Of a DNA stretch of 64,000 nt, positions 33,104 to 48,482 are shown one piece after another (the stretch's first letter is position 1; every line of letters begins with the position of its first letter). The DNA is from Halomonas sp. 1513 (GTDB taxonomy: Bacteria > Pseudomonadota > Gammaproteobacteria > Pseudomonadales > Halomonadaceae). Made by a program: the position numbers and the translations under genes. The notes under the pieces are model-generated. The model ran no database searches. It was not told the DNA's origin and was given only the letters and a program-made list of their open reading frames with translations. The stretch covers positions 3,596,001 to 3,660,000 of the forward strand of contig CP019326.1 in the NCBI GenBank assembly GCA_001971685.1, in the 5' to 3' direction.

Positions 33104-33928
33104 ATGCCCTTTACCGACCTGCTCGCTCGCCCCGAATGCCTTGCCTGGCACCAGCAGCTGGCGCGCCTGCTGCGCGGCGCCGCCGCGGCCGACTTCCCAC
33201 GCCAGCTGGATCACTGCCTGCGCGAGCTGGTGGCCTACGACACCATCCTGATCAACGCCTATCGCGGCCGCCGCCGGCCGCTGCTGATCCACGACGACTA
33301 CCCCGAGGCCCAGCGCGAACAGGGCATCGAACGCTACCTGAGCGAGGCCTACCTGCTCGACCCCTTCTTCACCGCGGTCAGCGACGGCCTCGACCACGGC
33401 GCCCAGCGCCTGCGCGAGCTGGCGCCGGACCGCTTCGAGTCGAGCGACTACTACCACCGCTACTACCGCGACCTGGGGCTGCACGACGAAGTGGGGCTGT
33501 TCGCGCGGGTCGACGAGCAGGTGGTGATCGCGGTATCGCTGGGCTTCGGCGGCAACTCACCGCCGCTGACGCGCCGCGCGCTGCAGGCGCTGCGTCACCT
33601 GGCGCCGCTGGTCGAGGCGCTGCTCGAGGAGTACTGGAAGTGGCAGGGCGGGCAGTTTCAGCAGCGTCTCGACGAGCGCGAGCCGGTGGAGGCGGCCTTC
33701 GCCAGCTTCGGCCGCGAGGCGCTCACCGCCCGCGAACAGGAGATCGTACGGCTACTGCTGGCCGGCCACTCGACCAAGTCGGCGGCCCGCGCGCTGGAGA
33801 TCAGCGACGGCACCGTCAAGGTGCACCGCAAGCACATCTACCAGCGCCTGGCGGTCTCCAGCCAGACGCAGCTGTTCCGGCTGTTCCTCGATCACGTGGC
33901 GCTGGTCTCGCGCCAGCGCAGCGTTTAG
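33104..33928 (+). CDS. LuxR-type transcriptional regulator, polyamine module 1
   Basis: 274 residues from MPFTDLL; an upstream GTG at 33059 is possible. A sensor domain of about 190 residues contains LLDPFF, ELAPDRF and SSDYYHRYYRDLGLHDEVG, blocks that recur almost exactly in the regulator of module 2. The C-terminal HTH is LuxR-type: LTAREQEIVRLLLAGHSTKSAARALEI, GTVKVHRKHIYQRL. No quorum-sensing autoinducer motif or receiver domain is seen. It likely binds a polyamine-derived ligand and controls the divergent carbamoylase/aminotransferase promoter. It is tail-to-tail with the carbamoylase gene. Confidence 0.8.
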   Translation: MPFTDLLARPECLAWHQQLARLLRGAAAADFPRQLDHCLRELVAYDTILINAYRGRRRPLLIHDDYPEAQREQGIERYLSEAYLLDPFFTAVSDGLDHGAQRLRELAPDRFESSDYYHRYYRDLGLHDEVGLFARVDEQVVIAVSLGFGGNSPPLTRRALQALRHLAPLVEALLEEYWKWQGGQFQQRLDEREPVEAAFASFGREALTAREQEIVRLLLAGHSTKSAARALEISDGTVKVHRKHIYQRLAVSSQTQLFRLFLDHVALVSRQRSV

Positions 33929-33937
33929 CAGAGTCGT

Positions 33938-35170
33938 CTAGCGGTTCGCCAGTTCCACTAGCGCATCGCACAGCACCTGGGCGCCCAGGGCGCACTGCTC
34001 GGGGCTCGAGTACTCCGCCTCGTTGTGGCTGATGCCGTCGTGGCAGGGGATGAAGACCATCGCGGTGGGCGCGACCCGCGACACATAGACGGCGTCGTGG
34101 CCGGCGCCGCTCAGCATGCGCCGGTAGGCAATGCCGCGCGCCTTGGCGGCGCCCTCCACGGCGTCGACGCAGCCGGCATCGAAGCTCACCACCGGCGAGG
34201 CCCAGATGCGCTCGCTCTTCGCCTCCACGCCGAAGGCCTCGCCGGCGGCGGCCAGTTCTTTCTCGAAGCGCGCTTCCAGGGCATCCAGCTCGCCCTCGTC
34301 GATGTGTCGCAGGTCGACGCTGAGCCGCACCTCGCCGGGCACCACGTTACGCGAGGCCGCGTCGATCTCCAGGGTGCCGCAGGTGACCTTGGTGTCGCCG
34401 CTGGGATCCGCCAGGGCGTGGGCCTGGAGGCGATCGATAAAGCGCGCCGCGGCGGCCAGGGCGTCGCGACGGTAGCGCATCGGCGTGGGGCCGGCATGCG
34501 AGGACTGGCCGCGCAGGGTGACGTCGAACCAGCGCATGCCCTGCACGCCGGTCACCACGCCGATCGCCTCGTGGTTCTCCTCCAGCACCGGCCCCTGCTC
34601 GATATGCAGCTCGAGGAAGCCTGCCAGGCGCGGCTCGCCCACCGCCATCTCGCCGTTGAAGCCGGTCGCAGTGAGCGCCTCGCCGAGGCTCACGCCGTCG
34701 CGGTCGCGTCGCGCCAGGGTCGAGTCGACGCTGAACACGCCGGCATAGGTGCCGGAGGCGACCATGGCCGGGGCGAAGCGGCTGCCCTCCTCGTTGGTCC
34801 ACACCACCAGCTCCAGCGGTCGCTGGGTGACCACGCCGTGATCGTCGAGGGTACGCAGCGCCTCGAGGCCGGCCAGTACCCCCAGCACGCCGTCGAAGCG
34901 CCCGCCCTTGGGCTGGGTATCCAGGTGGCTGCCAACGCCGATCGGATCGAGATCGTCACGCTTGCCGGCGCGGCGCAGGAACATGTTGCCGACGCGGTCG
35001 ACGCGCAGCGCAAGACCCAGCGCCTGGCCCCATTCGATCAGCAGGTGCCGGCCGGCGGCGTCCTCGTCGGTAAGCGCCAGCCGGTGGCTGCCGCCGTTGG
35101 GGCTGGGGCCGATCTCGGCCATCGCCATCAGCGAATCCCACAGTCGTTGCCCATCGATGGAGTGCGTCAT
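33938..35170 (-). CDS. M20-family Zn/Mn amidohydrolase (N-carbamoyl amino-acid/ureido-acid hydrolase type)
   Basis: 410 residues, standard for the HyuC/AmaB/allantoate amidohydrolase group. Metal ligands and base are visible: GVGSHLDTQ, WTNEEGSRF (Glu-Glu), LELHIEQGP and, near the end, PCHDGISHNEAE. The dimerisation domain holds GQSSHAGPTPM and RNVVPGEVRLSVDLR, whose Asn and Arg bind the substrate carboxylate in relatives. Next to agmatine deiminase it may hydrolyse N-carbamoylputrescine in place of AguB, or 4-ureidobutyrate if oxidation comes first. It is divergent from the aminotransferase and shares its candidate operator. Confidence 0.85.
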   Translation of the reverse strand: MTHSIDGQRLWDSLMAMAEIGPSPNGGSHRLALTDEDAAGRHLLIEWGQALGLALRVDRVGNMFLRRAGKRDDLDPIGVGSHLDTQPKGGRFDGVLGVLAGLEALRTLDDHGVVTQRPLELVVWTNEEGSRFAPAMVASGTYAGVFSVDSTLARRDRDGVSLGEALTATGFNGEMAVGEPRLAGFLELHIEQGPVLEENHEAIGVVTGVQGMRWFDVTLRGQSSHAGPTPMRYRRDALAAAARFIDRLQAHALADPSGDTKVTCGTLEIDAASRNVVPGEVRLSVDLRHIDEGELDALEARFEKELAAAGEAFGVEAKSERIWASPVVSFDAGCVDAVEGAAKARGIAYRRMLSGAGHDAVYVSRVAPTAMVFIPCHDGISHNEAEYSSPEQCALGAQVLCDALVELANR

Positions 35171-35234
35171 GGCTGCCTCGTTGCGTTGTGGTTATAGGGT
35201 GTTGCCAGCTTAGAAAGCGGCCCTGCCTGCCACC

Positions 35235-35252
35235 ATACCCCAATCGGGATAT
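35235..35252. promoter_or_regulatory. Candidate LuxR-type operator, module 1
   Basis: An 18-bp near-palindrome ATACCCCAATCGGGATAT with a CCC-N4-GGG core. It lies 64 bp upstream of the carbamoylase ATG and 63 bp upstream of the aminotransferase ATG, exactly in the middle of the divergent gap. A sister site precedes module 2. Confidence 0.6.
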
Positions 35253-35315
35253 GTTCCCGCCAAGTCGCCCCTGGCTAGTCTGGCGCTACCGATAACAACA
35301 GACGAGGCCACGACC

Positions 35316-36758
35316 ATGCCCCCGACATCGACCATCAAGCGTTCCGCAGCGAGGCCCCCCAACGCCGGCACCCGCCAGGACCTCGACGCCCAGGCGCTGT
35401 GGCAGAAGGACAAGGATCACTTCATCCACCCCTTCACCGACTACAGCCGCTTCCACGACGAGGGCTGCGATCTGATCACCGACAGCGACGGCATCTACGT
35501 GGAAGACGTCCATGGCAATCGCTTTATCGACGGCATCGCCGGACTTTGGTGCGTCAACGTCGGTCACGGTCGCGCCGAGATCGGCCAGGCCATGGCCGAC
35601 CAGGCCACCCGCATGGCCTACTTCTCCACCTTCAACAACCTCTCCAACGCCCCGGCGGCGGAGCTGGCCGCCAAGCTCGCCGAGCTGGCCCCGGCCCACC
35701 TCAACCACGTGTTCTTCAGCTGCGGCGGCTCGACGGCCAACGACGCCACCGTTCGCCTGGTGCACTACTACTTCAATCGCCTGGGCAAGCCCAGCAAGAA
35801 GCGCATCCTGTCGCGCCACAACGCCTACCACGGCACCACCTACCTGGCGGCGAGCCTGACCGGCATCGAAAGCAACAACTGGGACTTCGATACTCTGGAT
35901 CACCTGGTCACCCACCTCAGCGAGGCCAACCTCTACCGGCGCCCCGCGGGCATGAGCGAGGCGGCCTACTGCGACCACCTGGTGGCCGAGCTGGAGGAGC
36001 GCATCGCCGAGATCGGCGCCGATAACATCGCCGCCTTTATCGCCGAGCCGATCATGGGCGCCGGTGGCGTGCTGATGGCCCCCCAGGGCTATCACGCGCG
36101 CATCCAGGCGGTGTGCCGCGCCCACGACATCCTGTTCATCGCCGATGAGGTGGTCACCGGCTTCGGCCGCCTGGGCCACTTCTTCGCCTCGGAGGCGGTC
36201 TTCGATACCCAGCCGGATATCATCAACTGCGCCAAGGGCCTCTCCTCGGGCTATGCGCCGCTGGGCGCCACCCTGATCTCCGACGAGCTCTTCGAGGTGC
36301 TGGGCACCCCCCAGGGCAAGGGCGGCGTACTGAGCACCGGCTTCACCTACTCCGGCCATCCGGTGAGCTGTGCGGCGGCGCTCAAGAACATCGAGATCAT
36401 CGAGCGCGAGGCCATCTGCGCCAACGTCCGCGAGGTAGGGCCCTACCTGACGCAGCAGCTCAAGACGCTTTCGGATCACGCGACGGTGGGCGACGTGCGC
36501 GGCAGCCACTTCATGCTGGCCATCGAGAACGTCGCCGACAAGGCCACCAAGGAGCTGCTGCCGGTGGAGGCGCGGGTCGGCGACCGGGTCGCCGCCGAGG
36601 CCCAGAGCCGCGGCCTGATCATTCGCCCGGTGGGCCACCTCAACATCATCTCGCCGCCGCTGATCTGGGACCGCGACACCGTCGACCGGGCGGTGGCGAT
36701 CCTTGACGAGGCCTTCACCGCCGTCACGGCGTCCCTCAAGGCCGACGGCTTCCTCTGA
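35316..36758 (+). CDS. Class III omega-aminotransferase, probably putrescine/polyamine-specific (SpuC-like)
   Basis: 480 residues of fold-type I PLP enzyme. FHDEGCDLITDSDGIYVEDVHGNRFIDGIAGLWCVNVGHGR is the family N-terminus; AYHGTTYLA, FIAEPIMGAGG, FIADEVVTGFGRLGHFFA and the PLP lysine in NCAKGLSSGYAPLGA follow. This subfamily uses pyruvate to deaminate putrescine or other terminal amines to aminoaldehydes. The neighbours (agmatine deiminase, carbamoylase, transporter) fit putrescine or N-carbamoylputrescine as substrate. No aldehyde dehydrogenase is in the window. Confidence 0.88.
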   Translation: MPPTSTIKRSAARPPNAGTRQDLDAQALWQKDKDHFIHPFTDYSRFHDEGCDLITDSDGIYVEDVHGNRFIDGIAGLWCVNVGHGRAEIGQAMADQATRMAYFSTFNNLSNAPAAELAAKLAELAPAHLNHVFFSCGGSTANDATVRLVHYYFNRLGKPSKKRILSRHNAYHGTTYLAASLTGIESNNWDFDTLDHLVTHLSEANLYRRPAGMSEAAYCDHLVAELEERIAEIGADNIAAFIAEPIMGAGGVLMAPQGYHARIQAVCRAHDILFIADEVVTGFGRLGHFFASEAVFDTQPDIINCAKGLSSGYAPLGATLISDELFEVLGTPQGKGGVLSTGFTYSGHPVSCAAALKNIEIIEREAICANVREVGPYLTQQLKTLSDHATVGDVRGSHFMLAIENVADKATKELLPVEARVGDRVAAEAQSRGLIIRPVGHLNIISPPLIWDRDTVDRAVAILDEAFTAVTASLKADGFL

Positions 36759-36900
36759 GAAGGGCCGATTTATTGCTGCGCTCGACATCCTGACCGCCGG
36801 CGGTGCTCGCAATCCTCATTGAGCAAACTGTCAACTCCGGTTGCTGTGCTCCGGCGGCGGCCAGCCTGTCTTCGCTCGCGACATAAATCGGCACCTTCTC
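36757..36900. repeat. 144-bp near-palindromic, MITE-like element
   Basis: The outer ends are inverted copies: GAGAAGG-GCCGATTTAT on the left and GAGAAGGTGCCGATTTAT in reverse complement on the right (one inserted base). The pairing continues, imperfectly, through GCG, ACA and the CCGCCGSCGG blocks to within a few bases of the centre near 36828, so the whole unit could fold into one long hairpin. The left end overlaps the aminotransferase stop codon. It encodes nothing. A miniature inverted-repeat transposable element or decayed transposon ends are the likeliest origins. Confidence 0.6.
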
Positions 36901-36946
36901 GATTAAGAATCGAATAGCTACCACAACGATAAATAGAGAGTGTTGC

Positions 36947-38293
36947 ATGGAAAGTTTTGGCGCCTGGAGCCTGCTCCCCACCGCCGTGGTGCTGGGCATG
37001 GCCGTTATCACCCGTCGCACCATCGAGTCGCTGCTGGCCGGGGCCCTGGTGGGCCTGCTGATGATCGACCCCACCACGGTGGTCACCCAGGGCTCGGATA
37101 TCCTGCTCAGCGTGCTGGGCAACGACACCGTGACCTGGATCATCCTGGTCTGCGGCCTGTTCGGCAGCCTGATCGCCCTGCTGGTCAAGACCGGCGGCGT
37201 GCTCAGCTTCGGCGACGCCGTCACCAAGCGCATCCATAGCCGTCGCCAGAGCCTGCTGGCCACCTGGGTGCTGGGGCTGGTGATCTTCGTCGACGACTAC
37301 CTCAATGCGCTGACCATCAGCGCCTCGATGAAGAAGATCACCGACCGATTCCAGGTCTCGCGGGAGAAGCTCGCCTATATCGTCGACTCCACCGCGGCGC
37401 CGATCTGCATCCTGGTGCCCTTCTCCACCTGGGCGGTGTTCTTCGCCGGCCTGCTGGAGGAGAACGACGTGGCCGGCAACGGCATGGGCCTGTATATCGA
37501 GTCCATTCCGTATATGTTCTATGCCTGGGTGGCCGCCGCCGTGGTGCCCCTGGTGGCCATGGGCTGGATTCCCAACCTCGGCCCCATGAAGGCCGCCGAG
37601 GCCCGCGCCGCCACCGGCCAGCTGATGCCGGACGGCGTCGACGACAGCGCTCTGGAGGTGGAAGACACCGGCAAGAAACGCCCGCACCTGCTCAACTTCC
37701 TGCTGCCCATCGCCACCCTGATCTTCTTCACCTGGTACTTCGAGATCGACATCCTGCGCGGCGTGATCGTGGCGCTGGCCGTGACCCTGGTGCTGATCGC
37801 CGCCCAGCGGCTGCTGAGCTTCCACGACACCTTCGATACCGCCCTGGATGGCTTCAAGGCGATGATCATGCCGCTGGGCACCCTGGTGGCCGGCTTCACC
37901 CTCAAGGAAGTCAACGACGTGCTGGGGCTCACCGACTACGTGATCGCCACCGTCCAGCCGCTGATGAGCCCGGGAATGCTGCCGGCGGTGGTGTTCGTCA
38001 CCATGGCCTTCCTGGCCTTCGCCACCGGCTCCTTCTGGGGCATCTTCGCCGTGGCCATGCCCATCGTGCTGCCGCTGGCCGCCAGCATGGACAGCCATAT
38101 GCCGCTGGTGATCGGCGCGCTGATCTCGGCCAGCGCCTTCGGCAGCCACGCCTGCTTCTACGGCGACTCGACGGTGCTCTCCGCCCAGGGCAGCGGCTGT
38201 ACGCCCATGGCCCATGCCCTGACCCAGTTGCCCTACGTGCTGATCGCCGCCGTTATCGCCGCCGGTATCTTCCTGATGGTAGGCCACCTGTGA
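36947..38293 (+). CDS. NhaC-family transporter, polyamine module 1
   Basis: 448 residues with about eleven helices. Family signatures are GLVIFVDDYLNALTIS, YIVDSTAAPICILVPFSTWAVF and FATGSFWGIFAVAMPIVLPLA. The family is usually annotated Na+/H+ antiporter, yet this gene lies between the aminotransferase and agmatine deiminase, and a paralogue accompanies the acetylpolyamine amidohydrolase. A cationic amine (agmatine or putrescine) as substrate is therefore a reasonable inference. The 3' end overlaps a GTG that is the alternative start of aguA. Confidence 0.82.
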   Translation: MESFGAWSLLPTAVVLGMAVITRRTIESLLAGALVGLLMIDPTTVVTQGSDILLSVLGNDTVTWIILVCGLFGSLIALLVKTGGVLSFGDAVTKRIHSRRQSLLATWVLGLVIFVDDYLNALTISASMKKITDRFQVSREKLAYIVDSTAAPICILVPFSTWAVFFAGLLEENDVAGNGMGLYIESIPYMFYAWVAAAVVPLVAMGWIPNLGPMKAAEARAATGQLMPDGVDDSALEVEDTGKKRPHLLNFLLPIATLIFFTWYFEIDILRGVIVALAVTLVLIAAQRLLSFHDTFDTALDGFKAMIMPLGTLVAGFTLKEVNDVLGLTDYVIATVQPLMSPGMLPAVVFVTMAFLAFATGSFWGIFAVAMPIVLPLAASMDSHMPLVIGALISASAFGSHACFYGDSTVLSAQGSGCTPMAHALTQLPYVLIAAVIAAGIFLMVGHL

Positions 38294-38301
38294 GACCAAT
38301 C

Positions 38302-39414
38302 ATGAACGAGCCAATGATCGACATCCCGACCGCCGAACCGACGCCCCGGGCCCAGGGCTTCGCCATGCCCGCCGAGTTCGCCCCCCACGACGCCTGCTGG
38401 ATGCTCTGGCCGCAGCGGCCGGATACCTGGCGCTACGGGGCCAAGCCGGCCCAGCAGGCCTTCGTCGCGGTGGCCTGCGCCATCGCCGAGAGCGAGACGG
38501 TGTTCGTCGGCGTCAACGACGATCAGTACGAGAACGCCCGCCACCAGCTGCCCACGCATATCCGCGTGGTGGAACTCTCCAGCAACGACGCCTGGATGCG
38601 CGACATGGGTCCCACCTTCCTGACCCACCCGGACGGCCGCCTGGCCATGGTCGACTGGGTGTTCAACGCCTGGGGCGGCCTCAAGGGGGGGCTCTACTTC
38701 CCCTGGGACAAGGACAAGCGCATCCGCACCAAGATCGCCGAGATGCTCGGCATCCCCCGTTTCGAGGCGCCGGTGGTGCTGGAGGGCGGCGCCATCCACG
38801 TGGATGGCGAGGGCACCCTGATCACCACCGAGGAGTGCCTGCTCAACGCCAACCGCAACCCCGAGATGGGCCGCGAGGGGATGGAGACGGTGCTCAGGGA
38901 GTACCTGGGCATCGACAAGGTGATCTGGCTGCCGCGCGGCTGCCACCTGGACGAGACCAACGGCCACGTCGACAACCTGTGCTGCTTCGTCGCCCCCGGC
39001 CAGGTGGCACTGAGCTGGTGCGACGACGCCGCCGACCCCCAGGCCGCCATCTGCCGCGAGGCGCTGGCGGTGCTGGAGAGCGCCGGCGACGCCAAGGGCC
39101 GGCCGCTGAGCGTCCACAAGCTGCCCCAGCCGGGGCCGCTGACTATCGCCGAGGACGAGGCCAGCGGCCTGGATCGCCTCGACAGCTCCCACCCGCGCCA
39201 GCCCGGCGACCGCATGGCCGGCTCCTATGTCAACTTCTACATCGGCAACTCGGTGGTGGTGATGCCCTTCCTCGACCCCGCCCACGACGAGGAGGCCAAG
39301 GCGATCCTCCAGGGCCTCTTCCCCGACAAGCGGGTGATCGGCATCCCGGCCCGGGAGATCCTGCTCGGCGGCGGCAATATCCACTGCATCACCCAGCAGC
39401 AGCCGCGCGTGTGA
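38302..39414 (+). CDS. aguA: Agmatine deiminase
   Basis: 370 residues, usual length for AguA. It converts agmatine to N-carbamoylputrescine and ammonia. The guanidine-modifying enzyme fold is seen through MPAEFAPHDACWMLWPQRPDTWRYGAKPAQ, NDAWMRDMGPTF, VLEGGAIHVDGEGTLITTEECLLN, GCHLDETNGHVDN and the catalytic cysteine in GGGNIHCITQQ. The start is at ATG 38302; a GTG at 38290 overlapping the transporter stop is also possible. No AguB follows it, which is unusual. Confidence 0.95.
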   Translation: MNEPMIDIPTAEPTPRAQGFAMPAEFAPHDACWMLWPQRPDTWRYGAKPAQQAFVAVACAIAESETVFVGVNDDQYENARHQLPTHIRVVELSSNDAWMRDMGPTFLTHPDGRLAMVDWVFNAWGGLKGGLYFPWDKDKRIRTKIAEMLGIPRFEAPVVLEGGAIHVDGEGTLITTEECLLNANRNPEMGREGMETVLREYLGIDKVIWLPRGCHLDETNGHVDNLCCFVAPGQVALSWCDDAADPQAAICREALAVLESAGDAKGRPLSVHKLPQPGPLTIAEDEASGLDRLDSSHPRQPGDRMAGSYVNFYIGNSVVVMPFLDPAHDEEAKAILQGLFPDKRVIGIPAREILLGGGNIHCITQQQPRV

Positions 39415-39421
39415 ACACGCG

Positions 39422-39439
39422 TTATCCCCTTGGGGACAA
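39422..39439. promoter_or_regulatory. Candidate LuxR-type operator, module 2
   Basis: TTATCCCCTTGGGGACAA, again CCC-N4-GGG with A/T-rich flanks, 62 bp before the NhaC-2 start codon. It aligns without gaps to the site at 35235-35252, and both promoters also share GGYGCTACCRATARCA downstream of the site. Confidence 0.6.
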
Positions 39440-39501
39440 TGCGGGCGACGCCCCAGCGGTGCTACCAATAGCAGACCGCATAACAACAAAGGTCATCTAC
39501 C

Positions 39502-40959
39502 ATGTCGCACAACGCTTCGGGCCTGACGGGCCGTTCTCAGCGCTTCGGCAGTGCCACCAAGGGCGGCCTGCTGTTTCTCGCTGTCGTGTTGGTCGCCAGC
39601 CTGAGCGGCTTCGCGCTGATCGATAGTGACTATTACGGGCTCTACAGCCTGCTCCCTACCACCGTGGTCATCAGCATGGCGCTGCTCACTCGGCGTACGC
39701 TGGAAGCCCTGCTGGCCGGAGCACTGAGCGGCTTCATCATGCTCTCGCCCAGCACCGCCGTACAGGACATGGCGGCCAGCGGCCTGGGGGTGATGCAGGA
39801 CCCCACCATGGGCTGGATCATCCTGGTCTGCGGCCTGCTCGGCAGCCTGATTGGCCTGCTGCAGTTCGCGCGCGGCACGGAAGCGTTCAGTCGTGCCGCC
39901 GGACGCTACTTCACCACGCGCCGCAGTGCGCTGCTGGGCAGTGTCGGGCTCGGCGTGCTGATCTTCATCGATGACTACCTCAACGCCATGACCGTCTCGG
40001 CGGCGATGAAACGGCTGGCCGACAAGCTCAAGATATCGCGCTCGATGCTGGCCTATATCGTCGACTCGACCGCGGCGCCCATCTGCCTGATCATTCCCTT
40101 CTCCACCTGGGCCATCTACCTCTCGGGACTGCTGGAGAGCCATGACGTTGCCGACACCGGCCAGGGCTTCAGCTACTACCTGACGCTCATCCCCTATCTG
40201 TTCTACCCCTGGGTGGCGCTGATCGTGGTGCTGCTGGTCGCTGGCGGACTGATCCCGGCGCTGGGCAAGATGAAGCGTGCCGAACAGGGCGACGAAGAGC
40301 GGTTGCCAGAGAACAACGAAGAGGAAAATCCCGAGCAGTTCACGCATCGTCCCGCTAGGTTGATCAATTTCCTGCTGCCGATGGCAACGCTGATCTTCGC
40401 CACCTGGTGGTTCGAGATTGATGCACTGATCGGTGTGGCGTTCGCCCTGCTGGTGACCCTCGGACTGTACGTGGCCCAGGACATGGCACCGCTCAACCGC
40501 CTGTTCGACGAGATCATCAAGGGACTGCAGTTCATGCTGGTGCCGCTGGGTATCGTCTTCGCCGCCTTCATCCTGCAGGACGTCAACGAGCAATTGAGCC
40601 TGGCCGAGACACTGATCGACTGGGTCATGCCGGTCATGGCGGGTCAGTGGCTGCCAGCAGTGACCTTCGTGATACTCGCCGGCCTCGCCTTTGCCACCGG
40701 CTCCTTCTGGGGCGTCTATGCCATTGCCTTTCCCATCGTGGTTCCGCTGGCGCTCGCCACCGGCGCCTCGCTGCCACTGACCCTAGGCGCCATGATCTCG
40801 GCGGGAGCCTTCGGTTCGCACGCCTGCTTCTTCGGCGACTCCACGGTATTGAGCGCCCGTGGCTGCAGTGTGACGCCGCTGCAGCACGCCCTGACCCAGC
40901 TTCCCTATGTCTTGATCGCCGCGGCCTTTAGTGTGCTGCTATTCATCGTCCTGGCCTGA
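39502..40959 (+). CDS. NhaC-family transporter, polyamine module 2
   Basis: 485 residues, paralogous to the transporter at 36947-38293: GWIILVCGLLGSLIGLL, GVLIFIDDYLNAMTVS, YIVDSTAAPICLIIPFSTWAIY and FATGSFWGVYAIAFPIV match it almost position by position. It differs by a longer N-terminal extension and a Glu-rich cytoplasmic loop (GDEERLPENNEEENPE). It starts the second module and is followed after ten bases by the amidohydrolase, so uptake of acetylated polyamines or antiport of the products is plausible. AAAGG precedes the ATG. Confidence 0.82.
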   Translation: MSHNASGLTGRSQRFGSATKGGLLFLAVVLVASLSGFALIDSDYYGLYSLLPTTVVISMALLTRRTLEALLAGALSGFIMLSPSTAVQDMAASGLGVMQDPTMGWIILVCGLLGSLIGLLQFARGTEAFSRAAGRYFTTRRSALLGSVGLGVLIFIDDYLNAMTVSAAMKRLADKLKISRSMLAYIVDSTAAPICLIIPFSTWAIYLSGLLESHDVADTGQGFSYYLTLIPYLFYPWVALIVVLLVAGGLIPALGKMKRAEQGDEERLPENNEEENPEQFTHRPARLINFLLPMATLIFATWWFEIDALIGVAFALLVTLGLYVAQDMAPLNRLFDEIIKGLQFMLVPLGIVFAAFILQDVNEQLSLAETLIDWVMPVMAGQWLPAVTFVILAGLAFATGSFWGVYAIAFPIVVPLALATGASLPLTLGAMISAGAFGSHACFFGDSTVLSARGCSVTPLQHALTQLPYVLIAAAFSVLLFIVLA

Positions 40960-40969
40960 GGAGTCGACC

Positions 40970-42073
40970 ATGCCACGCACCGGGTTTGCCTTTCATGAAC
41001 ACTGCATGTGGCACGATGCCGGCCCGTGTTCGATCTTCGACGCCCCGGGAGAGTTCGTGCAACCTGCCGCCGCGGCAGAGCATCCAGAGACCAAGCGGCG
41101 CCTGCGTAACCTGCTGGAGATGAGTGGCCTGATCGATGAGCTGGTCCTGCTTAAGGGTGAACCGGCGAGCGAGGAGGACCTGCTGCGCTTTCACACCTCC
41201 GCCTACCTCGACCGGCTGGCGGAGATGAGCGAACGCGGTTTCGGTGATGCTGGTGAGTGTGCGCCAATGCGCAAGGACAGCTACACCATCGCCCGTCGCT
41301 CCACTGGGCAGGCGATGATCGCCATGCAAGCGGTGCTTAGCGGCCGCTGCGACAACGCCTATGCGCTGTGCCGACCACCTGGCCACCACGCCGAGCGTGA
41401 CCGGGGCCGGGGCTTCTGCCTGCTGGGCAATATCCCGGTGGCGATCATGGCGATGATGGCGCGCCATCCGCTGAAGCGCGTCGCGGTCATCGACTGGGAT
41501 GTGCATCACGGCAATGGCACCCAGCAAGCGTTCTGGGAGCGTGATGATGTATTGGCCATCTCGCTCCACCATGACAACAACTATCCTCAGGATAGCGGCC
41601 ACCTCAGCGAGCGCGGCGAGGGTGCCGGATTCGGCTATACCCTCAACGTGCCGCTACCTGCCGGGAGCGGGATCGGTGCCTATCTGGCGGCCCTCGACGA
41701 GGTGGTCATACCCGCCCTCGCTCGCTATCGGCCCGAGCTGATCGTGGTAGCCTGCGGCTTCGACGCCAGCGCCATGGACCCCCTCGGCTGCATGCTGCTC
41801 AACAGCGGCACCTATGCGACCATGACCCAGAAGCTGTTGAACGCCGCTGAACGGCTCTGCTCCGGGCGATTGGTCATGGTCCACGAAGGCGGTTACTCGG
41901 AAGGCTATGTGCCGTTTTGCGGCCACGCAGTGATTCAGACACTGGCCGCGAGTCAGACCGAGGCCTGCGATCCGATGAACGCTGAAATCGCCCGCTGGGG
42001 GCAACAAACGCTACAGGAATACCAGCAGCCTTGGATCGACCGGGCCGCCGCGCTAGTGGAGGATATTCGCTAA
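40970..42073 (+). CDS. HDAC-like acetylpolyamine amidohydrolase
   Basis: 367 residues from an ATG with GAGGAG six bases upstream. It belongs to the histone deacetylase/APAH superfamily, which removes acetyl groups from acetylputrescine, acetylcadaverine and similar amines using a zinc ion. Conserved parts are RPPGHHAERDRGRGFCLLGN, VIDWDVHHGNGTQ (Asp and His zinc ligands), SLHHDNNYP, ACGFDASAMDPLG (second Asp) and HEGGYSEGY. Its place between an NhaC-type transporter and a LuxR regulator related to that of the agmatine cluster points to polyamine use rather than protein deacetylation. Confidence 0.87.
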   Translation: MPRTGFAFHEHCMWHDAGPCSIFDAPGEFVQPAAAAEHPETKRRLRNLLEMSGLIDELVLLKGEPASEEDLLRFHTSAYLDRLAEMSERGFGDAGECAPMRKDSYTIARRSTGQAMIAMQAVLSGRCDNAYALCRPPGHHAERDRGRGFCLLGNIPVAIMAMMARHPLKRVAVIDWDVHHGNGTQQAFWERDDVLAISLHHDNNYPQDSGHLSERGEGAGFGYTLNVPLPAGSGIGAYLAALDEVVIPALARYRPELIVVACGFDASAMDPLGCMLLNSGTYATMTQKLLNAAERLCSGRLVMVHEGGYSEGYVPFCGHAVIQTLAASQTEACDPMNAEIARWGQQTLQEYQQPWIDRAAALVEDIR

Positions 42074-42095
42074 GCGTCTAACAGGCTGATATGCC

Positions 42096-42893
42096 ATGCA
42101 CGAGTCTCGTCACGCTGCCACACCTCCCGCCAGCCTGGCGCCTGTCGCCAAGCTGGCGGGGCTGGTGCGCTCGCCGGATTTTCTCGATGGGCTGGGGGAG
42201 GTACTTGCGGCTTACTTTCCCGGCATCAGCTATGCGGCCTTCCACTTTTCCGCCCAGGGTCGTCCCACCATCCTGGCACACAATCTCGATGCCACGCGCC
42301 ATCAACGCGTTCTCATACCGTACGTAGAACGCATGTACTTGCTCGATCCGATATTCCAGCACTGGGAGCGACACCGGGCCCGCGGCGTGTGGTCATTGGA
42401 TGAACTGGCGCCAGCCGGGTTTCGAGACAGCGACTATTTCGCCACCTATTACCGCGAGCTGGGACTGCATGACGAAGCCGGGGCCTTCTTTCCCCTGACC
42501 GAGCACGACTGCCTGTCGCTCTCCTTCGGTTTCTATCGACCCTTGGCCACGCCGGCACCCGACGACGTGCTCGCCGTGCTGACCTATCTATTCCCCTTGC
42601 TGGAATCGCTGATAGGCCAGTTCTGGCTGGCCAGCAGCCTGCACCTTCCCAGCATCGACGACCAGGCTCCCAGCCAATTGCACGACTTCGGTCGCGATGT
42701 ACTCAGCGACCGTGAGCGCGACGTGGCTTGGCTAATCCTGCGCGGCTACAGCTCGCCGGAGATTGCCCGACAGCTGGGCATCACCCAAGGGACGGTCAAG
42801 AACCACCGCAAGCGCCTCTACAGTCGGCTCAACATCAGTAGTCAGGGCGAGCTTTTCCGCCAGTTCATGCTATTCCAGCAGCCCCACTCCTGA
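42096..42893 (+). CDS. LuxR-type transcriptional regulator, polyamine module 2
   Basis: 265 residues. The sensor half has YLLDPIF, DELAPAGF and SDYFATYYRELGLHDEAGAFF, nearly the same blocks as in the module 1 regulator, and the C-terminal HTH reads LSDRERDVAWLILRGYSSPEIARQLGI, GTVKNHRKRLYSRL. The two proteins are clear paralogues of an uncharacterised LuxR subfamily. It follows the amidohydrolase by 22 bp and is probably co-transcribed with it, giving autoregulation through the operator before NhaC-2. Confidence 0.82.
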   Translation: MHESRHAATPPASLAPVAKLAGLVRSPDFLDGLGEVLAAYFPGISYAAFHFSAQGRPTILAHNLDATRHQRVLIPYVERMYLLDPIFQHWERHRARGVWSLDELAPAGFRDSDYFATYYRELGLHDEAGAFFPLTEHDCLSLSFGFYRPLATPAPDDVLAVLTYLFPLLESLIGQFWLASSLHLPSIDDQAPSQLHDFGRDVLSDRERDVAWLILRGYSSPEIARQLGITQGTVKNHRKRLYSRLNISSQGELFRQFMLFQQPHS

Positions 42894-43246: not shown

Positions 43247-43945
43247 CTAGCGGCACAGCCGGAAGCCGCGCATGCCGAAGTGGAAGTGATCGGCATGCGC
43301 GGCGTTGTAGTCCGGTCCCAGCACGTTGCCGAAGATATCGCAGGCGCCGTCCCGCGCCTCGCGCAGAAACGCCCCTGCCTCGCCGTCATTGTCCCAGTCG
43401 CCTAGCAGCGTAATGCGCCGCCCGTCGGCGAAGCCGAACCCCGCCACGTCGAACGCTTCGGCAGTGGCGTGTTCGCTCAGGCGCCCGGTTTCGCGGCCGT
43501 AGACGTTGCGGCAGCTGTAGCTGCCATAGTGCTCGACGCTGGTCACGCGGCTGCCGAACACCTCCTCGGCGGCGGGCTGCAGGCGCTGGCGCTCGTAGAT
43601 GACCCAGGCCAGTGCCAGCGGGCAGCTGGCGACGAAGCTGGCGTTGAAGTCGACCCCGCTGCCCTGGACCCGCACCACGTTCGCAAGCGGGCACCCCGCC
43701 ACCGGCTCATGGTCGTCCAGCGCGGCATAGGCCAATTCACCGTCCGGCACCGTATCCAGCGCCGCCAGGCAGCCCTGGCGGTCGTCGGCCAGCTGGCGCA
43801 GCTTCCACTTGCTGACCGGCGTCAGCGGGTCATCCACCGCCCGCGGCTCCCAGGGCGCCCAGTGCCGGGGCACCGCCTCCCAGACGCGCTGGTGCGCCGC
43901 GGTCACCGCCACGGCGATGATCAACAACACCATGAACTTGCCCAT
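43247..43945 (-). CDS. Extensin-family (extensin-like C-terminal) protein
   Basis: 232 residues with an N-terminal signal/anchor (FMVLLIIAVAVTAAH). The domain shows GCPLANVVRVQGSGVDFNASF, SVEHYGSYSCRNVYGRETGRLSEHATAEAFDVAGF and ADHFHFGMRGFRLCR; the His/Asp/His pattern is that of the extensin_2 domain, related to D-Ala-D-Ala carboxypeptidase-like metal proteins. Probably a periplasmic envelope enzyme; activity unproven. It is tail-to-tail with the glycine-zipper gene. Confidence 0.87.
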   Translation of the reverse strand: MGKFMVLLIIAVAVTAAHQRVWEAVPRHWAPWEPRAVDDPLTPVSKWKLRQLADDRQGCLAALDTVPDGELAYAALDDHEPVAGCPLANVVRVQGSGVDFNASFVASCPLALAWVIYERQRLQPAAEEVFGSRVTSVEHYGSYSCRNVYGRETGRLSEHATAEAFDVAGFGFADGRRITLLGDWDNDGEAGAFLREARDGACDIFGNVLGPDYNAAHADHFHFGMRGFRLCR

Positions 43946-44068: not shown

Positions 44069-45049
44069 CTACTGCGACTCGGGCGGCATGGCCGCCTCGG
44101 GAATCTCCAGGCCGGCCTCCTGGTAGTAGCGCAGCGCGCCTGGATGCAGCGGCGTGGTGGTGTTGTCGAGGGCGATCTGCGCGGTCATGCCCTCCACCGG
44201 GGCGAAGCTCTCGGCGATGGCCTCGACGTTCTCCCAGTAGGCGCGGGTCAGGTCGTAGGCGGTCTCCTCGTCCATGCTGCTGTTGGCCACGATGCCGATG
44301 AAGGTGCCCAGGGTGGTGGCCTCGGGCATGTCGCGGTAGGTCTCGGCGGGAATGGTCGCCGGTGACAGGAACGGCAGCGCTTCGGTCACTGCCTCGAGCT
44401 GCTCGTCGCTGAACGACAGGATATGCAGCGGCCGCGACGAGTGCACCTCGGTGAAGGCCGGAATCGGCGGCACGCCGTTGTAGCTGAAGCCGACGATGCG
44501 CCCGTCGACCACCGCCTCGGCGGCATCGTCCATGCGCATGCGCTGGAAGTCGGGCTGGATGCCGAGCACCTCGAACACCATGTCGGTGATGTACTCGCCG
44601 CCGCCGCCAATGCTGCTGGGGTTGAAGCGCTCGCCCTCGAGGTCCTCGAAGGTCTCGATATCGCGGTCCTGGCGCACCGCCCAGTGCATGGTCGAGGGCG
44701 CGACCCAGGTGATCACCCGCATGTCGGGGTTGTGGTGGTCGGTCTGCTGGCCTTCACCATGGTAGCCCTCGTAGGCGCCGATGGCGTCGATCAGCGCCAG
44801 GTCGATCTCACCGCCGCGCAGGCGAATGGCGTTCTCCCGCGAACCACCGGTCTCGCGTACCGATATCTCGTGGTCGGTGGCGCCGCTGACGATGCGCGAC
44901 ACCTCGGAGTAGCCGAAGTACCAACCGCTGGCGCTGGGCGCCACGCCGATGCTCAGCGACTCGCCGGCCAGCGCCGGGGTAGCGGCAACCAGGGCCGCGG
45001 ACATCAGCGCCGTGCCTAGGTGGCGGCGCAGGGATAGGGTGGCGTGCAT
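44069..45049 (-). CDS. TAXI-type TRAP solute-binding protein (copy 1)
   Basis: 326 residues with a signal peptide ending TPALAGE. The TAXI-family body begins SLSIGVAPSASGWYFGYSEVSRIV and contains SVRETGGSRENAIRLRGGEIDLALID, FNPSSIGGGGEYITDMVFEVLG and GFSYNGVPPIPAFTEVHSSRP. It captures an organic anion in the periplasm for the TRAP permease. It is the last gene of the operon and is closely similar to the first gene (copy 2), a duplication within one transport operon. Confidence 0.9.
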   Translation of the reverse strand: MHATLSLRRHLGTALMSAALVAATPALAGESLSIGVAPSASGWYFGYSEVSRIVSGATDHEISVRETGGSRENAIRLRGGEIDLALIDAIGAYEGYHGEGQQTDHHNPDMRVITWVAPSTMHWAVRQDRDIETFEDLEGERFNPSSIGGGGEYITDMVFEVLGIQPDFQRMRMDDAAEAVVDGRIVGFSYNGVPPIPAFTEVHSSRPLHILSFSDEQLEAVTEALPFLSPATIPAETYRDMPEATTLGTFIGIVANSSMDEETAYDLTRAYWENVEAIAESFAPVEGMTAQIALDNTTTPLHPGALRYYQEAGLEIPEAAMPPESQ

Positions 45050-45082
45050 GATCCTGTCTCCTGTCTGGTTGTTATTGCTGCC

Positions 45083-45487
45083 TCACTCGCCGTCGCGGAA
45101 CGCGATGCCCTCTTCGGCGAGTACCTCACGGGCCACGCGGAAGCCGTCGATAGCCGCCGGGAAGCCGCAGTAGGCGGCGCTCTGCAGCAGCACCTCGCGG
45201 ATTTCCGCCGGCGTGCAGCCGTTGTTGAGCGCGCCCTTGAGGTGAATCTTGAGCTCATGGGGGCGATTGAGAGCCACCATCATGCCCAGGTTGACCAGGC
45301 TGCGAGTCTGTCGAGACAGGCCCTCGCGGGTCCAGATATCGCCCCAGCAGTTGCGGGTCACCAACTCCTGCAGCGGCCAGCTGAAGTCGTCGGCGCCGTC
45401 CAGCGAGCGGTCGACGTAGGCATCCCCCAGCACCTCGCGGCGCGCGGCGATTCCCTGTGGATCGAGACGGTCGTTACGATGGCTCAT
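45083..45487 (-). CDS. Carboxymuconolactone decarboxylase-family (AhpD-like fold) protein
   Basis: 134 residues from an ATG with GAGGAG eight bases upstream. Family features: ELVTRNCWGDIWTREGLSRQTRSLVNLGMMVALNRPHELKIHLKGALNNGCTPAEIREVLLQSAAYCGFPAA, with His and Cys at the active-site region as in 4-carboxymuconolactone decarboxylase. In this context the substrate is more likely a lactone or keto acid derived from the transported compound than protocatechuate products, since no other beta-ketoadipate gene is present. Confidence 0.82.
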   Translation of the reverse strand: MSHRNDRLDPQGIAARREVLGDAYVDRSLDGADDFSWPLQELVTRNCWGDIWTREGLSRQTRSLVNLGMMVALNRPHELKIHLKGALNNGCTPAEIREVLLQSAAYCGFPAAIDGFRVAREVLAEEGIAFRDGE

Positions 45488-45498
45488 GGCGCATCTCC

Positions 45499-46422
45499 TC
45501 ACTCGCTGGCGGCGGCCAGCAGGTTGTCGAAGGCATCGCCGAAGTAGAGCTCGTAGCTGTCCTTCTCGACGTAGCCGAGGTGCGGCGTGGCCACCAGCCC
45601 CGGCAGGGCCAGCATGGGGTGCTCGAACAGCGGCTCCTGCTCGAAGACATCGATGCCGGCACGCCCCGGCCGACCGGCACGCAGCGCCGCCTCCAGCGCG
45701 CCGGACTCGATCAGCTCGGCGCGGCTGGTGTTGATCAACACCGCCTCGGGTTGCATCAACGCCAGATCCTCGGCCCTGACCATACCGCGGGTGTCGTCGT
45801 TGAGGCGCAGGTGCAGGCTGAGCACGTCGCTGCGGGCGAACAGGTCATCCTGGCTGGCGGCGACCTCGAGCCCCGCCTCGGCGGCGCGCTGGCGAGTGCC
45901 CTCACGCCCCCACACCAGCAGCTGCATGCCGAATGCCTGACCGTAGCCGGCCACCAGCTGGCCGATCTTGCCGTAGCCGAAGATGCCCAGGGTGCGGCCC
46001 TTGAGCCCGGTACCCAGGGTGCGCTGCCAGCGCCCCGCCTTGAGGTTCTCGACCTCTTGCGGAATGTGCCGGGTCGCCGCCATGACCAGGCCCCAGGTCA
46101 GCTCGGCGGCGGCCACCGGCGAGCCGGTACCGGTTACCACCTTGACCCCGTGGCGGGCGCAGGCGTCCTGGTCGATATGCGCCGCACCGCCGCCGGTCTG
46201 GCTGATGTAGCGCAGCTTGGGCAGCCTGGCCAGCAGCGCCTCGCTGATCCGGGTCCGCTCACGAATCAGCACCAGCGCCTCGGCGTCCTGGAAGCGCTCG
46301 GCCAGGGCATCGAGATCGCTCAGGGTGTCGTGATGAATCGTCACATCGTGACCCTCGAGCTTGCCGAAGGCGTCCAGGGTGCGTACTGCGTCTTGGTAGT
46401 CGTCGGAGATCACGATCTTCAT
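45499..46422 (-). CDS. D-2-hydroxyacid dehydrogenase, NAD(P)-dependent
   Basis: 307 residues. The nucleotide-binding core has LKGRTLGIFGYGKIGQLVAGYGQAFGMQLLVWGRE, and the catalytic triad is represented by NTSRAELIE (Arg), the following IDVFEQEPLFEHPML (Glu) and TPHLGYVEKDS (His). It interconverts a 2-hydroxy acid and 2-keto acid. The start overlaps the permease stop as ATGA, so the enzyme acts on the imported compound or its first product. Confidence 0.87.
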   Translation of the reverse strand: MKIVISDDYQDAVRTLDAFGKLEGHDVTIHHDTLSDLDALAERFQDAEALVLIRERTRISEALLARLPKLRYISQTGGGAAHIDQDACARHGVKVVTGTGSPVAAAELTWGLVMAATRHIPQEVENLKAGRWQRTLGTGLKGRTLGIFGYGKIGQLVAGYGQAFGMQLLVWGREGTRQRAAEAGLEVAASQDDLFARSDVLSLHLRLNDDTRGMVRAEDLALMQPEAVLINTSRAELIESGALEAALRAGRPGRAGIDVFEQEPLFEHPMLALPGLVATPHLGYVEKDSYELYFGDAFDNLLAAASE

Positions 46423-48377
46423 TGCGCGGGTTCCTTGCCTGCTGCGGGTGAGGAGGAGCGGGATAGCGTCGCCCGATTATGACGATATTGCCAGATGAAC
46501 AAGCCAACGATCAGCACGATGCCGATGACGTCGGTGAGCAGCTGGCCGGTGATCAGCATCAGCGCCGCGATCAGCAGCAGCCCGCGCTCCAGCCAACTGC
46601 AGGGTCGCAGGAAGTAGCCGATGGTCGAGCCGGCAAGCGCGATGATCCCCAACACCCCGGAACCGACCGCCAGCGCGATCTCCAACGGCGTACCGTTGCC
46701 CAGCAGCGGCGGGTGGTAGATGAACATGTAGGGGATCAGGAAGCCGCCCAGCGAGATCTTGGTCGCGGTCAGGGCGGTCTTGAACCAGTGCGAGCCGGCG
46801 ATCGCCCCGCCGATATAGGCTGCCAGGGCCACCGGCGGCGTGACCCCGGAGAGGATCGCGAAGTAGAGGATGAACAGGTGGGCCGAGAGGCTCGGCAGCC
46901 CGGCTTCGATGAAGGCCGCGGCCACCACCGAGGCGGCGAGCATGTAGGCCGCCACCGTGGGCAGGCCCATGCCGAGGATGATCGCCACCACCATCGCCAG
47001 GATCAGAGTGATCAGCACGTCGCCACCGCTGACCACCAGGATCACCGAGGAGACCTTGAGGCCCAGCCCGGTGAGGCTGATCACCGACGCAATGATCGCC
47101 ACGCTGCCGATGATCACCGCGATCATCGCCGCGGTCATCGCTCCGGCCTCGAGCGCCGCCGGCAGCGACTTGATGCGCTCCCACAGGGTGCCCGGGCTGC
47201 GCCACGAGAACAGGTAGATGAACACCGCGGTGAAGTAGGCGGCCACCGCCGCGGTGGTCGGGGTGTAGCGCAGCACCAGCATGGTCACCAGCACCGCGAT
47301 CGGCACCACCAGCGTCTCGATGTTGAACAGCCCCTCGCGCAGCGTCGGGCGCTGCGACTTGGGCACCGGATTGAGGCCCAGCCGCTTGGCCTCGAAGTGC
47401 ACGCTCATCCAAATGGCGAGATAGAACAGCAGCGCCGGGATCAGCGCCGCGCCGATGATCTCCAGATAGCTGGTCGAGATCACGTCGGCCATCACGAAGG
47501 CCGCCGCGCCCATGATCGGCGGCAGGATCTGCCCGCCGGTGGACGCCGAGGCCTCGGTGGCCGCGGCGAAGCGTGGGCTGTAGCCGTTCTTCTTCATCAG
47601 CGGGATGGTGAACACCCCGGTGGTGGCGACGTTGGCCGCGGTACTGCCGCTGATGCTGCCGAACAGCGCGCTGCACAGGGTCGCGGCCTTGGCCGGCCCG
47701 CCGGACATGCGCCCGGTGGCGGCGTTGGAGAGGCGCATGAAGGTATCGCCGCCGCCGGTGGTGACCAGCAGCGCGCCGAACATGATGAAGATCACGATCA
47801 CCGTCGACGAGGTGCGCATCAGGCTGCCGTAGATACCGGTGGGGCTCATGTAGAAGGTCGCCACCAGGTCCGCCCAGCCGTAGCCGCCGTGGCCCCAGAC
47901 GCCGGGCAGATAGCGCCCGAAGTAGGCGTAGGCCAGCGCCACCAGCACCAGCACCGGAAACGCCAGGCCGATGGCGCGGCGGCACGCTTCCAGCAGTAGC
48001 AGGATGGCGGCGATACCGAAGAATAGATCGGTGGTGGTCGGCATCAGATAGCCGAGGTCGTAGAGAATCCGATCGAAGTGATAGATGTAGTAGGCGCTGA
48101 TCGCTACCCCCAGCAGAACCGGAATCACGTCGTACCAGGGCAGCCGCTCGCTATCCCGCACCCGACAGGTATAGGCAAGGAAAATCAGCGGAAGGGCGAA
48201 CATCAGGTGGATCGCGTTCTGGGTATTGACTGCGCCGGTGACCGCCGCATAAAGGTGAAACAGTGCCATGGACACCGCGGTGATGCGCATGACCAGGAAC
48301 CAGAGACCGGTCAGCTTGCGTTTGCCGGCATCCTCGGCATATTTCTCGACAACCTGCTGCTCGCGAGGCGTATCCAT
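46419..48377 (-). CDS. TRAP transporter fused permease (TAXI type)
   Basis: 652 residues with about 17 hydrophobic segments, the small (DctQ-like) and large (DctM-like) permease parts in a single chain as in TAXI systems. Recognisable stretches are ALFGSISGSTAANVATTGVFTIPLMKKNGYSPRFAAATEASASTGGQILPPIMGAAAFVMAD and GMGLPTVAAYMLAASVVAAAFI. It imports an organic anion with Na+ or H+ using the two TAXI binding proteins of the operon. Substrate unassigned. Confidence 0.92.
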   Translation of the reverse strand: MDTPREQQVVEKYAEDAGKRKLTGLWFLVMRITAVSMALFHLYAAVTGAVNTQNAIHLMFALPLIFLAYTCRVRDSERLPWYDVIPVLLGVAISAYYIYHFDRILYDLGYLMPTTTDLFFGIAAILLLLEACRRAIGLAFPVLVLVALAYAYFGRYLPGVWGHGGYGWADLVATFYMSPTGIYGSLMRTSSTVIVIFIMFGALLVTTGGGDTFMRLSNAATGRMSGGPAKAATLCSALFGSISGSTAANVATTGVFTIPLMKKNGYSPRFAAATEASASTGGQILPPIMGAAAFVMADVISTSYLEIIGAALIPALLFYLAIWMSVHFEAKRLGLNPVPKSQRPTLREGLFNIETLVVPIAVLVTMLVLRYTPTTAAVAAYFTAVFIYLFSWRSPGTLWERIKSLPAALEAGAMTAAMIAVIIGSVAIIASVISLTGLGLKVSSVILVVSGGDVLITLILAMVVAIILGMGLPTVAAYMLAASVVAAAFIEAGLPSLSAHLFILYFAILSGVTPPVALAAYIGGAIAGSHWFKTALTATKISLGGFLIPYMFIYHPPLLGNGTPLEIALAVGSGVLGIIALAGSTIGYFLRPCSWLERGLLLIAALMLITGQLLTDVIGIVLIVGLFIWQYRHNRATLSRSSSPAAGKEPAQ

Positions 48378-48440
48378 TACCAGACTCCTGCGTCGCCGAC
48401 CCGCTGGGCCGGCGACGACGAATGGATGTAATCGAACGAT

Positions 48441-48471
48441 GCCCCATCGGCGGCAAGGCCGCCGATGGGGC
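48441..48471 (-). other. Strong intercistronic hairpin between binding protein and permease
   Basis: A perfect 14-bp stem (GCCCCATCGGCGGC and complement) with a 3-base loop lies in the 105-bp gap between copy 2 and the permease. Such hairpins usually protect the binding-protein mRNA or partly terminate, giving much more binding protein than permease. Confidence 0.75.
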
Positions 48472-48482
48472 AGTGACGGCGC

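Follow-up and report, generated by a model that had tools for sequence, protein, structure and literature searches.

Three routes by which agmatine is converted to putrescine are named in PMC12283126. Several known systems come close to the locus described here. In the AgDI system of Enterococcus faecalis (aguBDAC with AguR), the LuxR-like activator AguR answers to agmatine and is encoded divergently from the agmatine-induced deiminase operon (PMC3796520); in the aguBA system of Pseudomonas aeruginosa, AguA yields N-carbamoylputrescine (PMC9397018), which is passed to the nitrilase-type AguB; and in the AguA-AguY system, AguA has a non-canonical partner, AguY, which is related to Tse8 and gives putrescine as product (PMC12283126). 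For the removal of carbamoyl groups from acids, the bacterial N-carbamoyl-β-alanine amidohydrolase RrCβAA (8c46) has been modelled with a salt bridge between the ligand carboxylate and Arg291, and prefers linear carbamoyl substrates (PMC10952681). The locus compared with these systems here lies in Halomonas sp. 1513 (complete genome, 4.13 Mb), within a window of 64,000 nucleotides (CP019326.1, 3,596,001-3,660,000). Pfam and NCBIfam profile scans place eight genes there, all on the plus strand except M20, and these form two adjoining units: module 1, with the genes LuxR1, M20, AT3, NhaC1 and AguA, and module 2, with NhaC2, an HdaH-type hydrolase and LuxR2 (Table 1). The eight genes, and a sensor motif shared by the two regulators, had been pointed out in an earlier note on this DNA, and both are found as described.

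The pairing of a LuxR-type regulator with an agmatine deiminase is not new as such; it is already present in E. faecalis, where AguR is LuxR-like and agmatine-responsive (PMC3796520). The rest of module 1 differs: E. faecalis has a putrescine transcarbamylase beside aguA, whereas none of the eight genes here belongs to that family, and module 1 instead contains AT3, M20, an NhaC-family transporter and a dyad shared by two promoters. In contrast to the nitrilase-type AguB of P. aeruginosa and to AguY, M20 is a member of a metallopeptidase family, and an aguAB-like pair lies elsewhere in the genome. No description of the module-1 cluster, or of agmatine use by way of 4-ureidobutyrate, was found in the open literature, which was surveyed in part, with subscription papers and bioRxiv largely outside.

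Gene content, conservation and active-site residues point, with a probability of about 0.57, to a route from agmatine through N-carbamoylputrescine, 4-ureidobutyraldehyde and 4-ureidobutyrate to γ-aminobutyrate (GABA), which would not pass through putrescine. NhaC1 would import external agmatine and AguA would deiminate it to N-carbamoylputrescine; AT3 would act on the free amine end by transamination, giving 4-ureidobutyraldehyde; this would be oxidized to 4-ureidobutyrate by a PuuC-type aldehyde dehydrogenase, which is encoded beside M20 in most relatives and not at the home locus; and M20 would strip off the carbamoyl group to leave GABA. LuxR1 would sense a compound of the pathway through its VqsR-like domain and bind the dyad between M20 and AT3. 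The carbamoyl cap would take the place of the γ-glutamyl group of the Puu pathway. There, too, a PuuC-family dehydrogenase acts on a capped intermediate; the difference is that the γ-glutamyl group is added, whereas the carbamoyl group here would be left over from agmatine. We put it at even odds that the Halomonadaceae have such a carbamoyl-capped route, free of putrescine, of 1-pyrroline and of ATP for capping, and driven both ways by a VqsR-type LuxR regulator from a single dyad that occurs once in the genome.

Module 1 is a real, well-delimited unit and a predicted regulon. Its distribution was followed in 121 Halomonadaceae genomes; gene calling missed many open reading frames in several of them, so that counts were taken from tblastn maps, and the family searches scored the best 13 candidates for AT3 and the best 15 for M20. 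A LuxR1 orthologue (at least 57% identity) occurs in 32 genomes, in one of them (G053) as two fragments only, and these 32, with no others, are also the genomes with AT3 (E≤1e-200). All 32 have M20 (at least 61%), which 3 of the 89 other genomes share; NhaC1 (at least 75%) is found in 29 of the carriers and in no other genome, and AguA (at least 72%) in 31 of the carriers. The distance to AT3 is at most 12 kb for M20 in 32/32, for NhaC1 in 29/29, for AguA in 31/31 and for LuxR1 in 28/32 genomes. The compact amine-use system that the earlier note had proposed is supported, and lack of conservation of the neighborhood, which that note had named as grounds for refutation, is clearly not what is seen; the combination of genes goes beyond chance, their order being conserved across the family. 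In the usual layout, LuxR1 is followed by the dehydrogenase and M20, both in the opposite direction, and then by AT3, NhaC1 and AguA in the direction of LuxR1; the last three keep this order in 41 of the 46 loci that could be assessed and differ in five, while five additional loci are too short. The PuuC-family dehydrogenase lies directly downstream of M20 in 37 of 52 assessable copies (54 distinct, with two contigs too short), in 34 of the 37 with a gap of 12-64 bases between the matches; at 661 bits it scores under the PuuC equivalog cut-off of 850.

Module 1 has carriers and non-carriers within each of seven genera and therefore seems to be gained and lost as a unit. A scan of named genomes, limited to loci with one of six exact peptide patterns in common, turned up 72 loci. 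Of these, the first 50 are 57-98% identical to LuxR1, and the next, from Bermanella, is 39% identical. The first 50 come from Halomonas, Billgrantia, Franzmannia, Litchfieldella, Chromohalobacter, Vreelandella, Aidingimonas, Onishia and Cobetia, all of which we take to be Halomonadaceae; the sampled strain of Halomonas elongata has all six module genes (L153), and in Chromohalobacter module 1 stands beside polyamine ABC transporter and glutamine-synthetase-like genes. In 390 order-level genomes, seven AT3 matches were found at E≤1e-160 (the top four candidates were scored in most genomes, and weaker relatives could be missed); four of these lie outside the family (55-56%), and in the 20-kb stretches examined neither M20 nor AguA accompanies them. 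The M20 orthologues of the three genomes lacking LuxR1 (G016, G037, G009) lie without AT3, AguA or LuxR1, and AguA orthologues without LuxR1 show no M20, AT3 or NhaC1 match in 15 of 15 stretches (L102-L116; of the 17 such genomes, G025 is represented by L065 and L222, and G117 is not included). In six loci (L047, L049, L055, L142, L144, L145), LuxR1 is adjoined by a different AguA (53-54%) that is accompanied by an MFS transporter and a LysR regulator, between LuxR1 and M20 where the stretch shows both; this would be an alternative agmatine cassette.

Module 1 also has a predicted operator. The 46 non-identical intergenic regions between M20 and AT3 were aligned and scored for dyads and -10 elements by simple scripts, with no trained promoter model; loci without either gene, identical sequences, and L119 and L133, in which M20 and AT3 are kilobases apart, were left out. 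The word ATACCCC occurs in 46/46 regions, where 1.4 are expected from mononucleotide shuffles, and sits within a longer conserved dyad with the consensus GATATACCCCAATCGGGATATATT. Searched with up to three mismatches, the 18-mer of operator 1 has one site in the home genome, that of Table 1 (control 0), and in degenerate form it has 36 sites in 33 of the 121 genomes, namely all 32 carriers and G025 (reversed-pattern controls 0). Of these sites, 34 lie between M20 and AT3, one lies beside LuxR1 in G012, and one, in G025, belongs to a remnant in which AguA and the dehydrogenase flank the dyad, without M20, AT3 or NhaC1. Where M20 and AT3 are several kilobases apart (G005 and G008), each half has its own copy of the dyad. 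Operator and LuxR1 agree in 62/63 genomes of the seven mixed genera, which was never reached in 20000 within-genus shuffles. At the AT3 promoter, the distance from the dyad center to the start of a -10-like element is 33 nt, with T33 in 45/46, A34 in 46/46 and T38 in 46/46 regions, and the best match lies there in 37/46; on the M20 side, A34 is found in 41/46, and the best match lies at 32-33 nt in 22/46. A dyad centered near -44 fits an activator beside RNA polymerase, and it is on this ground that LuxR1 is predicted to activate both directions of module 1 from one dyad.

Two findings bear on the order of the chemical steps, the first of them concerning M20, which belongs to the N-carbamoyl-amino-acid hydrolase family (TIGR01879, 427.9 bits; cut-off 204) and, being Peptidase_M20, does not have the nitrilase (CN_hydrolase) fold of AguB (TIGR03381). 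All 13 checked metal-, carbamoyl- and carboxylate-binding positions are invariant in 27 rows; on an alignment mapped by hand, Glu127, Gln192, Arg288 and His382, present in 27/27 rows including the window, correspond to Glu131, Gln196, Arg291 and His385 of RrCβAA, which thus shares family and carboxylate-binding arginine with M20 and differs in genomic role. The ammonium group of N-carbamoylputrescine would have to face Arg288 and, together with the PuuC-type partner, this suggests that the amine end is oxidized first and the carbamoyl group removed last; PuuC itself acts in the γ-glutamyl, that is, capped pathway (PMC9397018). M20 is thus more likely a ureido-acid hydrolase than an N-carbamoylputrescine hydrolase, as far as residues and gene pairing can tell: of the earlier assignment as an amine-releasing M20 carbamoylase, the family stands and the amine-releasing role is the less likely one, and the gene lies on the minus strand.

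The alternative in which M20 replaces AguB, so that N-carbamoylputrescine gives putrescine, which AT3 and the aldehyde dehydrogenase then convert to GABA, is unlikely. The same gene set suffices for it, the solved relatives of AT3 include putrescine and polyamine aminotransferases, and the path from agmatine through N-carbamoylputrescine to putrescine is established, with unrelated enzymes already known for its last step (PMC12283126). It sets the carboxylate-binding arginine, kept in 27/27 rows, against an ammonium group, however, and the pairing of M20 with the dehydrogenase in one transcription direction also speaks against it. An aguB-like nitrilase moreover exists already in the genome, in a separate aguA-like/aguB-like pair at G000:C1:2672.5-2674.4 kb (L098:425-2382), whose genes overlap by 4 bases. 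Both members match the AguA and AguB models best and yet score below their cut-offs (216 against 382 for TIGR03380, 266.6 against 410 for TIGR03381), so that the nitrilase may not be a true AguB, a point in favor of the putrescine route; the role of the pair is not certain. A further variant, in which AT3 and the dehydrogenase make 4-guanidinobutyrate from agmatine, an AguA-like enzyme converts this to 4-ureidobutyrate, and M20 releases GABA, would likewise give M20 a ureido-acid substrate. It is improbable, however, for an AguA that scores far above the agmatine deiminase equivalog cut-off (TIGR03380, 564.4 against 381.8 bits) and retains Cys366 and nine other checked residues in 41/41 rows, including the window.

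Several observations weigh against the ureido route and its regulon. Arg288 is family-wide and shows only that the pocket has not been remodelled, and the substrate of NhaC1 is guessed from context. The dehydrogenase is absent from the locus in 15 of the 52 assessable copies, the home genus included; the home genome was not searched for another beyond the locus. AguA is also found in 17 of the 89 genomes without LuxR1, one LuxR1-positive genome (G063) has no AguA match, and three have no NhaC1. LuxR1 lies beyond 12 kb of AT3 in 4/32 genomes, in two of them on separate contigs, and the -10-like element on the M20 side is irregular, its best match falling elsewhere than at 32-33 nt in 24/46 regions.

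Table 1. Features of modules 1 and 2, with positions in the window.
Feature	Position	Strand	Evidence
LuxR1, regulator with VqsR-like sensor (residues about 14-151) and GerE helix-turn-helix (HTH) domain (206-260)	33104..33928	+	Pfam GerE 59.1 bits; 5xhx E 3e-9; model pLDDT 92
M20-family N-carbamoyl-amino-acid hydrolase, predicted 4-ureidobutyrate (N-carbamoyl-GABA) hydrolase	33938..35170	-	NF006769 565.8 bits (cut-off 452); PF01546; Arg288
-10-like element TAAGCT, M20 promoter, 32 nt from dyad center	35207..35212	-	46 promoter regions aligned; less regular side
Operator 1 (predicted), ATACCCCAATCGGGATAT, common to the divergent M20 and aminotransferase promoters	35235..35252	.	46/46 non-identical intergenic regions
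-10-like element TAGTCT, aminotransferase promoter, 33 nt from dyad center	35276..35281	+	46-region alignment
AT3, class-III omega-aminotransferase, predicted N-carbamoylputrescine aminotransferase	35316..36758	+	NF005447 714.5 bits (cut-off 618); PF00202
NhaC1, Na_H_antiporter-family transporter, predicted agmatine importer	36947..38293	+	PF03553 89.6 bits (cut-off 23)
AguA, agmatine deiminase	38290..39414 (alternative start 38302 possible)	+	TIGR03380 564.4 bits (cut-off 381.8)
Operator 2 (predicted), TTATCCCCTTGGGGACAAT, upstream of NhaC2	39422..39440, core 39423-39438	.	0 expected by shuffles; related dyad in 11/11 module-2 genomes with NhaC2
-10-like element TACCAA with upstream TGC, NhaC2 promoter, 33 nt from dyad center	39463..39468	+	promoter scoring
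NhaC2, second Na_H_antiporter-family transporter	39502..40959	+	PF03553 82.2 bits; 52% identical to NhaC1
HdaH-type (class-II HDAC-like) zinc amidohydrolase	40970..42073	+	PF00850 281 bits; best PDB 9gkw, 402 bits; RPP, EGGY, DPLG motifs
LuxR2, paralogous regulator of module 2	42096..42893	+	GerE 52.7 bits; sensor matches 5xhx; own clade 100/99

The regulators of the two modules are 35% identical over 257 residues and carry the sensor motif exactly (SDYYHRYYRDLGLHDE and SDYFATYYRELGLHDE). The home genome has eight matches to LuxR1 (E≤0.001). The sensor half is covered in only two of these, LuxR1 itself and LuxR2; among the remaining six, one match begins at residue 136 and five begin at 192 or beyond. 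By sequence comparison, both sensors match the structure 5xhx (E 3e-9 for LuxR1, 6.5e-7 for LuxR2), and the AlphaFold2 model of LuxR1 is confident. VqsR is a quorum-sensing-related regulator of P. aeruginosa. The structure 5xhx is named as VqsR in a docking paper (PMC9144697). This likeness is what speaks for LuxR1 and LuxR2 being quorum-sensing or stress regulators that merely lie nearby. Such a role is very improbable, however: neither protein matches Autoind_bind, only HTH-type families being matched (Pfam, E≤0.001); LuxR1 co-occurs with AT3 and the operator; and the LuxR clades follow their metabolic neighbors. In the tree, for which the program warns of long branches, module-1 and module-2 regulators form separate clades (100/99 each), each with its own partners, and the sister of the module-1 clade, with moderate support (97/76), sits with polyamine transport and glutamine-synthetase-like genes. 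LuxR1 and LuxR2 are predicted, from the dyads of their modules, to be local activators with VqsR-like sensors.

Related regulators occur in other settings. In L084, L086, L089-L091 and L177-L190, from Halomonadaceae and Pseudomonas, relatives of LuxR1 (30-35%) stand in most loci beside an APC-family permease and a nitrilase-type amidase, with GGGTTA/GGGGTA words enriched upstream of LuxR; this is another transporter-amidase-LuxR unit. A further LuxR clade, in L070, L071, L073, L074, L078 and L080, is accompanied by a different CN_hydrolase and an APC permease, and in three of these six loci (L071, L073, L074) GGGGTATATAACCCC lies upstream of LuxR. At L085:10697, a distance of 37 bases separates a near-perfect dyad, AATCTATCCCTATAGGGATATCGG, from a LuxR gene that is only distantly related.

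Module 2 had been read as the counterpart of module 1 in a matched pair of polyamine modules, the second for acetylpolyamines. Some features are in line with this: the regulators and transporters are paralogous (NhaC1 and NhaC2 are 52% identical over 446 residues), and both operators of the window fit TAYCCC-N4-GGGRYA, although three of 11 module-2 relatives have TG for TA. Both transporters pass the Pfam Na_H_antiporter cut-off, while neither reaches the equivalog cut-off of 370 for NhaC proper (TIGR00931; 27.2 and 20.8 bits). Two home-genus genomes without NhaC1 keep NhaC2, and in G063 NhaC2 occupies the place of NhaC1; these cases hint that the two may overlap in transport substrate. In G072, a distance of 2 kb separates module 2 from a dehydrogenase, an aminotransferase and a glutamine-synthetase-like gene.

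The hydrolase of module 2 does not fit an acetylpolyamine amidohydrolase. Its best solved relatives are deacylases of the HdaH type, including dimethoate hydrolase and propanil hydrolase (402-379 bits), whereas acetylpolyamine enzymes score about 140 bits (3men 141, 9gkz 138). DPLG, RPP (as RPPGHH) and EGGY occur in 11/11 rows of this histone deacetylase (HDAC)-like family, window included; RPP and XGGY define the HdaH type, and PEG (in HDAC10) or PIS (in bacteria) the gatekeeper of polyamine deacetylases (PMC11532494). At the gatekeeper position, equated by eye, all 11 rows have DPLG and none has PEG or PIS; DmhA and PrpH, two of the closest solved relatives, have RPA where the window enzyme has RPP. 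In bacteria, Graf et al. suggest, polyamines are deacetylated by enzymes of cluster 4 only (PMC11532494). On affinity, motifs and this restriction, the reading as a cluster-4 acetylpolyamine amidohydrolase (ApaH) is rejected. A home-genome HDAC paralogue, 60% identical, lies beside a TRAP transporter, a second HDAC-like gene, a D-amino-acid dehydrogenase and a pyrroline/piperideine-2-carboxylate reductase, which by gene content is an amino-acid setting. With such a hydrolase, the matched pair is distinctly unlikely; an acetylated diamine is a possible substrate of module 2. At G000:C1:2416000-2434000 (L194), two HDAC-like genes other than that of module 2 stand with a TRAP transporter, the same two kinds of redox enzyme and a branched-chain aminotransferase; similar arrangements occur near groEL in L195, L196, L197 and L202, possibly as a catabolic cluster for acylated amino acids.

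The distribution of module 2 likewise speaks against a matched pair. HdaH orthologues (at least 68%, one partial) occur in 12/121 genomes, with NhaC2 preceding HdaH in 11/12 and LuxR2 near it in 12/12. The two modules are adjacent in 5/5 sampled home-genus genomes; the seven others either lack module 1 or have their module-2 genes at another place, and module 2 without module 1 beside it is found in several genera (L075, L076, L079, L081, L082, L083). The separate LuxR clades with their own partners, together with these solitary copies, are the grounds for rejecting the duplication of one whole unit; the two, by phylogeny and gene order, are independent modules that are neighbors in one genus. 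In 11/11 genomes, NhaC2 has an upstream dyad T(A/G)TCCCCTT(G/A)GGGA(T/C)A, and in 6/6 tested of these 11 the best -10-like match, in some cases weak, lies at 32-33 nt. LuxR2 is predicted to act at this sister dyad on NhaC2 and the HdaH-type enzyme, which would deacylate an acylated compound. The relaxed pattern TAYCCC-N4-GGGRYA occurs twice in the window, where shuffling predicts no site, and a third time in the home genome, at G000:C1:3403221, with an MFS transporter gene on one side and an ABM-family gene on the other; this third site has no visible link to the modules and is probably due to chance.

Downstream, an extensin-like C-terminal domain protein (window 43247-43945; cluster c24) adjoins LuxR2, also in home-genus relatives. 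It is followed at 44069-49508 by a pair of binding proteins of the NMT1-like (TAXI-type) kind, 62% identical to each other, together with a CMD-family protein, a D-2-hydroxyacid dehydrogenase and a DctM-type TRAP permease; parts of this block adjoin module 2 in all five home-genus genomes.

If the ureido route is correct, the Halomonadaceae that carry module 1 would use agmatine by a route other than the three to putrescine that PMC12283126 names, and a function would be given to the unnamed aminotransferase family NF005447 and to a subgroup of M20. The 'acetylpolyamine' label of the second hydrolase would be corrected, and regulators of the VqsR-like group would gain a predicted operator and testable inducers. 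Regulator, operator and genes co-occur so cleanly that these predictions are directly testable in Halomonas elongata.

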